A stretch of 64,000 bases of DNA from an uncultured SAR86 cluster bacterium (GTDB taxonomy: Bacteria > Pseudomonadota > Gammaproteobacteria > Magnimaribacterales > D2472). The stretch covers positions 25,251 to 89,250 of the forward strand of contig CABXFU010000008.1 of NCBI GenBank assembly GCA_902511575.1, written 5' to 3'. Shown one piece after another: positions 33,905 through 37,477 of this stretch; position 1 is the stretch's first letter; every line of letters begins with the position of its first letter. The translations under genes were made by a program, and so were the position numbers. Below the pieces are notes generated by a model, which was not told the origin of the DNA, ran no database searches, and saw only the letters and a program-made list of their open reading frames with translations.

Positions 33905-34675
33905 CTATGAAACCTTTGCAACAGAAATCTTCCAAATTTCTTCTAGATACTCAATGAAATCAATCCATTGATTGAGTGTATCTATTTGAAAAAGATTGCT
34001 TCTAGATTTATAACCTTTTGACAGTTCTTTTATTTGGCTTTTATTTAATTTCAAACTCTTAACTAGGGAAGCTATGTCAAAACATGGATGATTGACTCCA
34101 GAATATTCCCAATCTAGAAAGTAGCATTTTTTATTCCAAAGCAGATTTCCTGGGTGTAAATCATTATGCGAAAGTACTTTATTTGTGGCATCTTGCAATA
34201 ATTCATTGTAAAGGTTTAAAGCTTTTTTAAAAAAAATTTTCTCAGATGAATCAACGAGCAAACTTTGATATAAAGACATTGAATTAGAGAATATATCAAT
34301 AGAATTCTTAGGAATGGGATGACTGTGAAGAGAATAGAGACAGCTACCTAATTGATATAAATCGTTTGCCTTAAATTTCTTACCAGTAAAAAGAGATTGT
34401 GTTCCAGAAATATACTCCCATATCAAGATGCCTGCTGAAATATCACTGTAAAGCACTTTAGGAGCTAGATCTAAATGACTGATATCCATGAGTAGATTCA
34501 CTTCATGCTGCCGATCAATTGCTAGTCTTGAAGCAACCAAAAGATCGACTCTGATAACAGCCTTAACATCATTAAGAATACCCAAATAAACGTTTGAAAT
34601 TGAGCTTGAAGATAATTCACGCTCTAAAATACACTTTCCAGGTATAGATTTAATTTTCTCAAGAGCTGACTGCAT
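33905..34675 (-). CDS. Aminoglycoside-phosphotransferase/choline-kinase-fold protein, probable thiamine kinase
   Basis: VLSHNDLHPGNLLWNKKCYFLDWEYSGVNHPCFDIASL Brenner motif; start likely MQSALEKIKS at 34675 (ORF to 34714); lies in TPP-riboswitch operon. Confidence 0.8.
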   Translation of the reverse strand: MQSALEKIKSIPGKCILERELSSSSISNVYLGILNDVKAVIRVDLLVASRLAIDRQHEVNLLMDISHLDLAPKVLYSDISAGILIWEYISGTQSLFTGKKFKANDLYQLGSCLYSLHSHPIPKNSIDIFSNSMSLYQSLLVDSSEKIFFKKALNLYNELLQDATNKVLSHNDLHPGNLLWNKKCYFLDWEYSGVNHPCFDIASLVKSLKLNKSQIKELSKGYKSRSNLFQIDTLNQWIDFIEYLEEIWKISVAKVS

Positions 34676-35255
34676 TATTCTCTTTAAGCGCTTTACTCCA
34701 TAAACGGAAACCAAATACTATTATTACTATATAGACTCCAAATAAACATGCTGTTAGCCAAAGATCTCTTGAAATAAATAATAGTATTGAAATAGAATCA
34801 ATGACTAACCAATATAGCCAATTTTCAAGCAATTTTTTTGCAACCATATAGGTTGCAACTACTGCCCCCCAAGTCACTAAAGCATCTAAGAATGGAAGAG
34901 CTGAATCAGTGAATAAGCGAAGCAAAGTACCCGAAAGAAATGACAGCATTAATATAATAAAAAGTGCAAAAAAATGATTTAATTTACTCCAGGTGTGTAC
35001 GACAAAATTTTCTTTATTTATTGCTTCCTTTTTCCATTGTGACCAACCATAAAAACCCATAAATACATAAAAAATTTGTAAATATGCCTCCATATATAAG
35101 CCCGCTGAACGCATAATAAAAAAATATAGGATGGAACTAATAATTCCTAAAATCCAGCATAAAATATTTTGTTTGACTGCTAAGATAAGATACAAAATAG
35201 CAAAAATAACCGCTGCTATCTCGAGCCAATTCTGAATAATATAATTAAAAATCAT
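34659..35255 (-). CDS. PnuC-family vitamin transporter, probable thiamine transporter PnuT
   Basis: 198 aa, ~7 TM; QNILCWILGIISSILYFFIMRSAGLYMEAYLQIFYVFMGFYGWSQW PnuC signature; in TPP-riboswitch operon. Confidence 0.85.
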   Translation of the reverse strand: MIFNYIIQNWLEIAAVIFAILYLILAVKQNILCWILGIISSILYFFIMRSAGLYMEAYLQIFYVFMGFYGWSQWKKEAINKENFVVHTWSKLNHFFALFIILMLSFLSGTLLRLFTDSALPFLDALVTWGAVVATYMVAKKLLENWLYWLVIDSISILLFISRDLWLTACLFGVYIVIIVFGFRLWSKALKENNAVSS

Positions 35256-37350
35256 ATCTCACTGAAAGGCCGACGTGTCTTGGATCGCCGTGTCGTTCAT
35301 ATAATGTATCTTTGAAGTCAGGCGCCTCATTTCCAAAATAAAATCCTCTTACCGAATAATATTCATCAAAAATATTTCTAGCCCAAATGGAATATGTCCA
35401 TCCTCCAATCAAATAATCAAAATTTATATTTGTTAGCGAATATGATTTAGATTGGTTGTTATGCGAATCAGAATAATAAAAGCTACTTTTACCAACTGCA
35501 TCTAAGGATAATGATGCTCTATTTGTAATGGACCAATTCATTCCAAACGCATAACTCTTTTTAGGCGCGTGCGCTTGCGCCCTGCCCTCAAGATCAGGCC
35601 TAGATTTCCAATTATTAATCTCAGTTCTTAACAAGCCCAGTCTTGCAAAAAAATTAAGAGATTCTGTAAGCTGCATATCAATATTGAGTTCTAATCCCTT
35701 GTTTGTTCCTTCAGCTGCATTTTGCGTTAAGAATGAAAAGGTATTCGGGTCTGTTGGATCAACTTGAGTGGAAATTAGAACTTGCTGATCTTCTCTATCA
35801 GAATAAAAAATTACTGCAGCGATATTTGTCTTTGCATCAAAAAGCTGAGCGTTAAAACCAACTTCATAATTTGTTAAAAATTCTGGATCATAATATAGAT
35901 TAGTATTTTTTGACTCTGGAGCTAGCCCAAGATTTAGATTAAAGCCGCCTTGATTAAATCCCCTTGCAACACTAATAAATATATTTGCAACATCACTTAA
36001 GTTTTTGTTCAGTGATATTTTTCCGCCAGACATCTGGTCAGTGGGATTAAATGACTCTCCAAATGAATCATAATAATTTGATTGATAATCCTCCCACCTA
36101 GCTCCTATAGACAGCTTGGTAAATTCGTCTAAAAAGTAATCTATGTTGCCAAATATTGACAAATTATCTGAAGAAAAATTACTTGAAGATGAGGATTGGC
36201 TTCCATATGGACCAAAAGGATCCGATGGATCGCCATAAACTCCATCATCATTCTTAAAATTAACTTCTTTTACATCAAAATAGCTGATACCAAGAACCCA
36301 CTCGGTATTTCTATTTGAATTGAAATTTAGTTCATCTGAAACCAATCTCAATTCTTGACTAAAGGTCTCTCTATCTCTCAATGTTTCTGAAAAATAATCA
36401 TAGGTATAAGGTGCATGTGACTTAGCATTACCCCAATCCGCATCATAGCTAAGAACTACATCCGTATCTGTGATACTGGTGATGCTCTGAAACTCATATC
36501 CGGCGAAGCCATGAAAAATCTTCATGCTATAAGCATTCATTTTTTGAGAATCCATACCTGGTCTATCCGAAAGAGTATTTAAACTTCCATCGATGGTCCA
36601 AATATCTGCTGGATCATCTAAATCTATTTGAGTTATGAGAAATTTAAGTGTTGTTTTATCTCTTAATTTCCAATTAATTTTTAACCTATATGTGTCTTCA
36701 TCTTTTTTTGAAGTATTGGATTTACCTAAAAATAAATTCTTTCTAAATCCATCTGAGTAATCGCTCCTTAATGCCACCCGGTAAGTAATATCTTGATTAA
36801 ATTGTGTGGGACCTCCAAATGCAATTCCTGCATTGCGGGTTCCATAAGTTCCCAAAGTAATTTCACTCGAACCCTCAAATACTTCAGTTGGTTCTTTTGT
36901 CTTTATATAAATTAGCCCAGCTAGAGCATTTGAGCCTATTCTAGATCCCTGAGGTCCTCTATGGACTTCGATTTGATCTACATCAAAAGTTGTTGCAATG
37001 CCTCCTTGGCCAGAGTAATCAATATCATCAATCAGAAATCCTACTGCTGAATTGGGGGTTCTCTCATATCCAGATCTTTCTCCAATGCCCCTAATTTGAA
37101 AATGTCTTGCCCTGGAATCACTTGCAGCAAAATTAAGGTTTGGTACCAAATAAGAAAGATTTTCAAAATGCTTGATTGGTTGTGATTCTATAATTTGATT
37201 ATTAAGAATGACAATGCTTGAGTCTTCTTCAAGAACATTTATTTCGCGCCAGTCTCCTTTTACAATTATTTCTTCAATGTCCTGAGAGAAGCTGGCAATG
37301 CTAAGAAAAATGAAAAAAAATGAAAAAAAAGTATTGTTGATGATGTGCAT
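35245..37350 (-). CDS. TonB-dependent receptor, probable thiamine/thiamine-precursor receptor
   Basis: 701 aa; signal peptide, plug (LVPNLNFAASDSRARHFQIRGIG), C-terminal ...GDPRHVGLSVRYDF; immediately downstream of a TPP riboswitch. Confidence 0.92.
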   Translation of the reverse strand: MHIINNTFFSFFFIFLSIASFSQDIEEIIVKGDWREINVLEEDSSIVILNNQIIESQPIKHFENLSYLVPNLNFAASDSRARHFQIRGIGERSGYERTPNSAVGFLIDDIDYSGQGGIATTFDVDQIEVHRGPQGSRIGSNALAGLIYIKTKEPTEVFEGSSEITLGTYGTRNAGIAFGGPTQFNQDITYRVALRSDYSDGFRKNLFLGKSNTSKKDEDTYRLKINWKLRDKTTLKFLITQIDLDDPADIWTIDGSLNTLSDRPGMDSQKMNAYSMKIFHGFAGYEFQSITSITDTDVVLSYDADWGNAKSHAPYTYDYFSETLRDRETFSQELRLVSDELNFNSNRNTEWVLGISYFDVKEVNFKNDDGVYGDPSDPFGPYGSQSSSSSNFSSDNLSIFGNIDYFLDEFTKLSIGARWEDYQSNYYDSFGESFNPTDQMSGGKISLNKNLSDVANIFISVARGFNQGGFNLNLGLAPESKNTNLYYDPEFLTNYEVGFNAQLFDAKTNIAAVIFYSDREDQQVLISTQVDPTDPNTFSFLTQNAAEGTNKGLELNIDMQLTESLNFFARLGLLRTEINNWKSRPDLEGRAQAHAPKKSYAFGMNWSITNRASLSLDAVGKSSFYYSDSHNNQSKSYSLTNINFDYLIGGWTYSIWARNIFDEYYSVRGFYFGNEAPDFKDTLYERHGDPRHVGLSVRYDF

Positions 37351-37436
37351 GCAATTCCTCCGCCATTATTGTATGGATCAGGTTCAAAGGGTTTCAATAC
37401 AGATCTCAGGTTAGAAAAACCACCCCTTTGCAATTA
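37350..37436 (-). promoter_or_regulatory. TPP riboswitch (THI element)
   Basis: Reverse complement TTGCAAAGGGGTGGTTTTTCTAACCTGAGATCTGTATTGAAACCCTTTGAACCTGATCCATACAATAATGGCGGAGGAATTGCATG has CTGAGA, ACCCTTTGAACCTGATC and AATGGCGGAGG core motifs. Confidence 0.95.
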
Positions 37437-37477
37437 GATTTTATAATATTTGAATTTAGCTTTAAAAGATACAGCTT

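Follow-up and report, generated by a model that had tools for sequence, protein, structure and literature searches.

A TPP-riboswitch operon predicted to import and trap thiamine in a SAR86 cluster bacterium

The closest known system to the locus described here is the OMthi-pnuT-tnr3 operon of gut Bacteroidetes, in which a TPP riboswitch, a TonB-dependent transporter, a PnuC-family transporter and a trapping enzyme are combined, mostly in one operon (PMC5613172). Deletion experiments in Bacteroides thetaiotaomicron lend support to a thiamine transport role of OMthi and PnuT, and this organism retains thiamine biosynthesis genes alongside its operon (PMC5613172). Thiamine receptors co-localized with pnuT had been predicted earlier, and their proof was still outstanding in 2009 (PMC2771747). 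According to the title of a 2018 study cited in PMC8552899, PnuT takes up thiamine by facilitated diffusion, and a trapping enzyme is therefore expected to accompany it. For SAR86, a published account reports B1 auxotrophy, describes an omr1 gene in SAR86 MAGs that lies close to a TDP riboswitch and classes it as a potential B1 transporter (PMC10881298).

We analyzed a window of 64,000 nucleotides, i.e. the whole stretch of DNA under study, from a genome bin of 1.39 Mb that is 83% complete and whose closest named relatives are SAR86 cluster bacteria (94% identity for the permease). We read the locus, with a probability of roughly 0.8, as an operon under TPP repression through which a SAR86 bacterium unable to synthesize thiamine scavenges the intact vitamin.

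Gene order and riboswitch geometry

The open reading frames and an RF00059 scan of the window placed a TPP aptamer and three genes, encoding a TonB-dependent receptor, a PnuC-family permease and a kinase, all on the minus strand (Table 1). In the covariance-model scan the aptamer match spanned model positions 1-105 and scored above the gathering score of 54.3 bits, and an RF00059 search of the whole bin (83% complete) found this single TPP aptamer. A Pfam search identified Plug and barrel domains in the receptor. By their coordinates the receptor and permease genes overlap by 11 bp, and the permease and kinase genes overlap by 56 bp if the kinase is read from a TTG codon at 34714 (269 aa) or by 17 bp if it is read from the ATG at 34675 (256 aa). 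As in the OMthi-pnuT-tnr3 operon, aptamer, TonB receptor and PnuC-family permease thus form one overlapping unit on the same strand, and this unit is conserved across loci. The preliminary description of this DNA had named, without giving a strand, a TPP aptamer, a TonB receptor behind it, a PnuC-like permease with an overlap of about 11 bp and a kinase of the choline/aminoglycoside-phosphotransferase fold with an overlap of 17-56 bp, and all of these were borne out. Promoter and terminator scans at the locus gave a yield not above that from shuffled sequence.

Table 1. Features of the locus, in positions of the window.
Feature	Position	Strand	Evidence
TPP riboswitch aptamer (RF00059)	37338..37437	-	cmscan 61.9 bits, E 9.7e-10, full length
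Helix P1, 5' strand UGCAA	37428..37432	-	RF00059 alignment
Shine-Dalgarno GGAGG within the aptamer	37357..37361	-	read from sequence
Helix P1, 3' strand UUGCA	37350..37354	-	last base is the A of the receptor AUG
TonB-dependent receptor, predicted thiamine receptor (omr1/OMthi-like)	35245..37350	-	701 aa; PF00593 90 bits, PF07715 42.3 bits
PnuC-family permease, predicted thiamine carrier (PnuT-like)	34659..35255	-	198 aa; PF04973 162.9 bits
APH/choline-kinase-fold kinase, predicted thiamine kinase	33905..34714	-	PF01636 51.4 bits, PF01633 40.3 bits

The conserved 3' part of the aptamer at the locus reads GGCGGAGGAAUUGCAUG and contains the GGAGG of Table 1, i.e. the ribosome-binding site is built into the aptamer, which is the geometry of a direct-occlusion riboswitch. 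With the Shine-Dalgarno sequence enclosed by the aptamer and the A of the start codon covered by helix P1, TPP binding should block ribosome access at the SAR86 receptor start directly. We examined 78 distinct aptamer sequences chosen for containing GGCGGAGG or UUGCGGAGG; GCGGAGG was present in 78/78 of this set, which had been chosen for that motif. Across the 78 sequences P1 was paired in 375 of 390 cells, compared to 52-166 with a slid partner, and 12 sequences carried C-G to U-A exchanges in P1. Furthermore, the start codon was located exactly 27 bases past GAACCUGA in most SAR86 loci (92 rows, with some genomes counted twice). Loci outside SAR86 mostly showed GGCGUAGG, and most of their start codons were found 87-109 bases downstream, which leaves room for a separate expression platform. 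The aptamer fold was not reproduced by minimum-free-energy folding of the lone aptamer sequence (z = 0.85), and our account of the switch therefore draws on geometry and covariation. Earlier comparative work reportedly proposed that THI elements overlap ribosome-binding sites, and we therefore claim no priority for the direct-occlusion geometry.

Conservation of the operon and distribution of thiamine synthesis genes

The order aptamer, receptor, permease and kinase is conserved in the SAR86 families f1 and f4 and in genus g21 of family f2. Among 80 named loci fetched by their permease, a receptor was present in 78 and an adjacent kinase in 56, and the permease and kinase genes overlapped or abutted in 51 of the kinase-bearing loci. 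Such recurrence of the gene arrangement far exceeds what chance would produce. Of the 24 loci without a kinase, a few are contig ends, and most of them have about 1-6 kb of kinase-free sequence past the permease. In genus g5 of family f2, and in genomes related to it, aptamer, receptor and permease are retained with no kinase beside them; the permease of g5 is followed by a convergent katG-like gene or another unrelated one. Thus, the linked kinase is not indispensable, and because genus g5 also has no TPK, some other kinase must serve there. A non-adjacent APH-type protein of this genus (L255) was weighed as a candidate for that kinase and is not put forward, because its place in the tree is among general APH proteins and a weak match also occurs in a thiC-bearing relative. 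Similar receptor-permease-kinase sets, mostly with a TPP motif, were found in other gammaproteobacterial families. In a sample of the class outside SAR86, 14 of 34 permease regions had an adjacent kinase and 19 of 34 had a receptor nearby; the remaining regions include NadR-like or TPK-like neighbors, named from their N-terminal sequence alone, and the PnuC-family genes beside such neighbors are more distant relatives.

We also compared the distribution of the aptamer with that of the thiamine synthesis gene thiC. Across 199 genomes of the SAR86 order, the aptamer was found in 104 and thiC in 48, and no genome carried both, whereas about 25 co-occurrences would be expected (Fisher p 8.7e-20, a value uncorrected for phylogeny and inflated by shared descent). 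Both states occur within genus g1, where one genome (G014) has thiC and its sister genomes have the aptamer, and within genus g8 (G067 and G135 versus G039), and so the swap occurred more than once. As the aptamer never shares a genome with thiC in this order (n=199), it is a simple marker of thiamine need.

In a panel of 40 genomes, comprising the source genome and 39 related ones, thiC was present in seven and thiL in 38, including the source genome, where the thiL match scored 239.5 bits and was over the cut-off. A profile search of the source genome, at 83% completeness of the bin, did not find thiC. The TPK domain PF04263 was found in none of the 40 genomes, with control genomes positive. 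No convincing match to thiE or thiD was obtained in the riboswitch-bearing genomes of the panel, whereas their thiC-bearing relatives have both genes. The genome survey for thiC, thiE and thiL that the preliminary description had proposed thus agrees with its salvage route: thiC was absent, there was no convincing thiE and thiL was present.

Identity of the permease and kinase and the likely cargo

The predicted structure of the permease was confident (pLDDT 87.5) and its fold matched that of PnuC (4QTN) with a TM score of 0.79 and 21% identity in the structural alignment; PnuC fold and PF04973 domain together identify it as a member of the PnuC family (NMN_transporter). The permease also exceeded the cut-off of the NCBIfam model for the PnuC nicotinamide riboside transporter (85.0 versus 42.45 bits). 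However, this is a family-level naming that is contradicted by context, as PnuC in the narrow sense is linked to a NadR-type kinase and the permease here, in an operon headed by a TPP aptamer, is flanked by the genes for a TonB receptor and an APH-fold kinase. From the riboswitch and the anticorrelation with thiC we infer that the permease would carry thiamine, and the thiamine specificity of receptor and permease is predicted from the riboswitch and comparative genomics. The alternation of D and N in the W-x-x-W-x-x-x-N/D motif of the permease was considered as a marker of specificity and dropped, because N occurs in two receptor-adjacent permeases (L234 and L239) and D in one beside a NadR-like gene (L251).

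E. coli salvages thiamine to TPP by means of ThiK and ThiL, a route attributed to Melnick 2004, as cited in PMC8552899. The best NCBIfam model for the SAR86 operon kinase was ThiK (TIGR02721), followed by GntI at 63.5 bits, and both models were matched by all 17 SAR86 kinases. However, the ThiK match scored 76.0 bits against an equivalog cut-off of 299.45, a threshold passed in 0 of 274 genomes of the class and in 1 of 14 control genomes. Of the seven genomes scoring best with TIGR02721 class-wide, four (G365, G441, G244 and the source genome, G000) have the match beside a PnuC-family permease. Residues H183, N184, D185, N190 and D201 are invariant in 17 homologues, and the kinase combines the APH fold with the catalytic H-x-D, N and D of ThiK. 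Its AlphaFold2 model was confident (pLDDT 88.1), with choline kinases as the closest solved folds (LicA, TM 0.75), and its identity to E. coli ThiK was 18%. In a tree of 51 kinases that included E. coli ThiK, SrkA and YniA, the SAR86 operon kinases formed one clade, while E. coli ThiK was left unplaced on a long branch and the deep branches were unresolved. The operon kinase probably works like ThiK; since its score lies under the ThiK cut-off and the tree does not join it to E. coli ThiK, "ThiK-type" is an inferred label. Of the earlier claim of a ThiK-type kinase, the match to ThiK as best model stands, and membership in ThiK is a supposition, with the score short of the cut-off and E. coli ThiK unplaced in the tree. 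The claim that a kinase takes the place of the usual pyrophosphokinase was upheld by the APH-fold gene in the operon, with TPK in 0/40 genomes and ThiL in 38/40. The best model having been missed by more than 200 bits, this kinase family is without a name in present libraries.

It is conceivable that thiamine uptake is read correctly and that the linked kinase acts on choline, ethanolamine or another small alcohol, with the thiamine kinase encoded elsewhere. We regard this as unlikely: although choline kinases are the closest solved folds, the ThiK cut-off was missed and genus g5 keeps the transporters with neither a linked kinase nor a TPK, the kinase gene is tied to a TPP aptamer and the permease both within SAR86 and in several further gammaproteobacterial families, strong matches to the operon kinase are lacking in thiC-bearing genomes, and an unrelated kinase under a TPP riboswitch would be odd. 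That permease and kinase are instead a pair for uptake and phosphorylation of nicotinamide riboside, placed under TPP control by an accident of location, is a reading to which we give hardly any credence. The TPP aptamer is kept beside the permease in SAR86 and in further families, the permease lacks a NadR-like neighbor, presence of the pair is anticorrelated with thiC, and permeases beside NadR-like or TPK-like genes elsewhere in the class are only more distantly related; these observations stand against the passing score of the permease with the nicotinamide riboside model and the fact that a nicotinamide riboside transporter, 4QTN, is the only solved structure found for the fold.

The preliminary description had proposed a complete route for thiamine or a moiety of it. 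The outer-membrane, inner-membrane and kinase genes of such a route are all present, but a moiety as cargo is disfavored by the lack of convincing thiE and thiD matches in genomes with the riboswitch. Salvage of HMP or the thiazole alcohol, with phosphorylation by the kinase, would need ThiE to join the moieties and ThiD for HMP, and of these two the riboswitch-bearing genomes have no convincing match whereas the thiC-bearing relatives have both. This makes moiety salvage very improbable, even though TPP riboswitches govern moiety salvage genes in other bacteria, such as thiV in Pelagibacterales (PMC10881298), and the specificity of receptor and permease is a predicted one. Intact thiamine is thus the likely cargo, given the mutual exclusion of riboswitch and thiC, the lack of TPK, the near-universal thiL and the lack of convincing thiC, thiE and thiD matches together with the riboswitch. 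In the simplest reading, auxotrophs use the operon in place of thiamine synthesis, the compound imported is thiamine itself, intact, and the kinase supplies ThiL with TMP. The locus offers a complete and testable path for thiamine with a predicted cargo.

Proposed mechanism and relation to known systems

We propose that at low TPP the aptamer would be open and the ribosome would load on the Shine-Dalgarno sequence inside it. Thiamine would then cross the outer membrane via the TonB receptor and diffuse through the inner membrane via the PnuC-fold permease, and the APH-fold kinase would convert it to TMP and thereby trap it in the cell, with ThiL, encoded elsewhere in the genome, converting TMP to TPP. 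At high TPP the aptamer would be stabilized and helix P1 would close over the start codon, which would shut down translation of the receptor and the overlapping downstream genes. A wider proposal joins switch and kinase: SAR86 would have a platform-free TPP riboswitch whose aptamer, owing to a difference at one position (other Gammaproteobacteria have GGCGUAGG, SAR86 has GGCGGAGG), is itself a ribosome-binding site that TPP occludes directly, and this switch would drive an unrecognized kinase family that, together with ThiL, takes the place of TPK in trapping the cargo of PnuT-type carriers throughout the Gammaproteobacteria. Taken as a whole, this wider proposal seems to us evenly balanced between right and wrong.

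In a 2024 review TPP riboswitches are the example of strand exchange, and direct occlusion is described for other classes (PMC10907184). The SAR86 aptamer resembles the group 1 direct-occlusion riboswitches of that review (SAM-II and preQ1) in that the aptamer incorporates the ribosome-binding site, and its geometry, unlike that of the strand-exchange example, would fit direct occlusion. If the aptamer does act in this way, a TPP example joins a mechanism known from other riboswitch classes. The nicotinamide riboside transporter PnuC (4QTN) shares fold and PF04973 domain with the SAR86 permease, which differs in being under a TPP riboswitch with no NadR-like gene adjacent. E. coli ThiK (YcfN) shares the APH fold and the catalytic motif with the operon kinase; however, E. 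coli thiK is unlinked to a transporter or riboswitch, whereas the SAR86 kinase gene is linked to both. The SAR86 omr1 of PMC10881298 comes from the same clade and has the same riboswitch and TonB receptor as our locus; the passages of that account on omr1 provide receptor and riboswitch, and the permease, the kinase, the ThiL logic and the geometry of aptamer and start codon come from the present analysis. Our literature search found no description of the receptor-permease-kinase gene set, and an earlier mention in older comparative-genomics or SAR86 genome work is possible.

The trapping step is where the locus departs from the OMthi-pnuT-tnr3 operon. The trap of the Bacteroidetes system is the pyrophosphokinase Tnr3, which converts thiamine to TPP, whereas that of SAR86 is predicted to be an APH-fold kinase, with a second step that needs ThiL in a genome without TPK. 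Relative to the Bacteroidetes operon, the SAR86 locus differs in the type of kinase, the predicted dependence on ThiL and the geometry of the switch.

Loci lacking a linked kinase or receptor

In loci L085, L087, L090, L091 and L094, and in many of L122–L177, no kinase adjoined the aptamer, receptor and permease. These kinase-less loci belong to SAR86 family f2, chiefly to genus g5, and thiamine pyrophosphokinase was also missing from the f2 genomes tested. At locus L160, a TonB receptor was not found near the aptamer, permease and kinase. The window additionally carries two short ORFs: the match of one is nucleotidyltransferase-like but weak, and the other is P-loop kinase-like.

Coordinates of the features described
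Feature	Location	Strand
TPP aptamer-to-receptor region, gammaproteobacterial locus	L186:3637-3844	
TPP aptamer-to-receptor region, gammaproteobacterial locus	L190:759-967	
TPP aptamer, then directly permease and kinase	L160:5870-7366	
Two short overlapping ORFs	window:38979-39774	minus

Genomes without aptamer or thiC

Among the 199 genomes, the members of SAR86 genus g12 (G044, G072, G076, G139 and G153) were neither found to carry a TPP aptamer nor among the thiC-bearing genomes. Both features were likewise missing from G029 and G032, two single-contig genomes of genus g4; both of these had a thiE match, and G032 a good thiD. It is possible that G029 and G032 are HMP auxotrophs, in contrast to their aptamer-bearing sister genomes.

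Apparent repeat of aptamer sequence near the receptor start

The TPP aptamers of L186 and L190 retain GGCGGAGG, yet no start codon follows the aptamer. An AATGGCGGAGG stretch is seen again about 110 bases on, immediately 5' of the receptor ATG, and looks like a duplicate of the aptamer's 3' portion.
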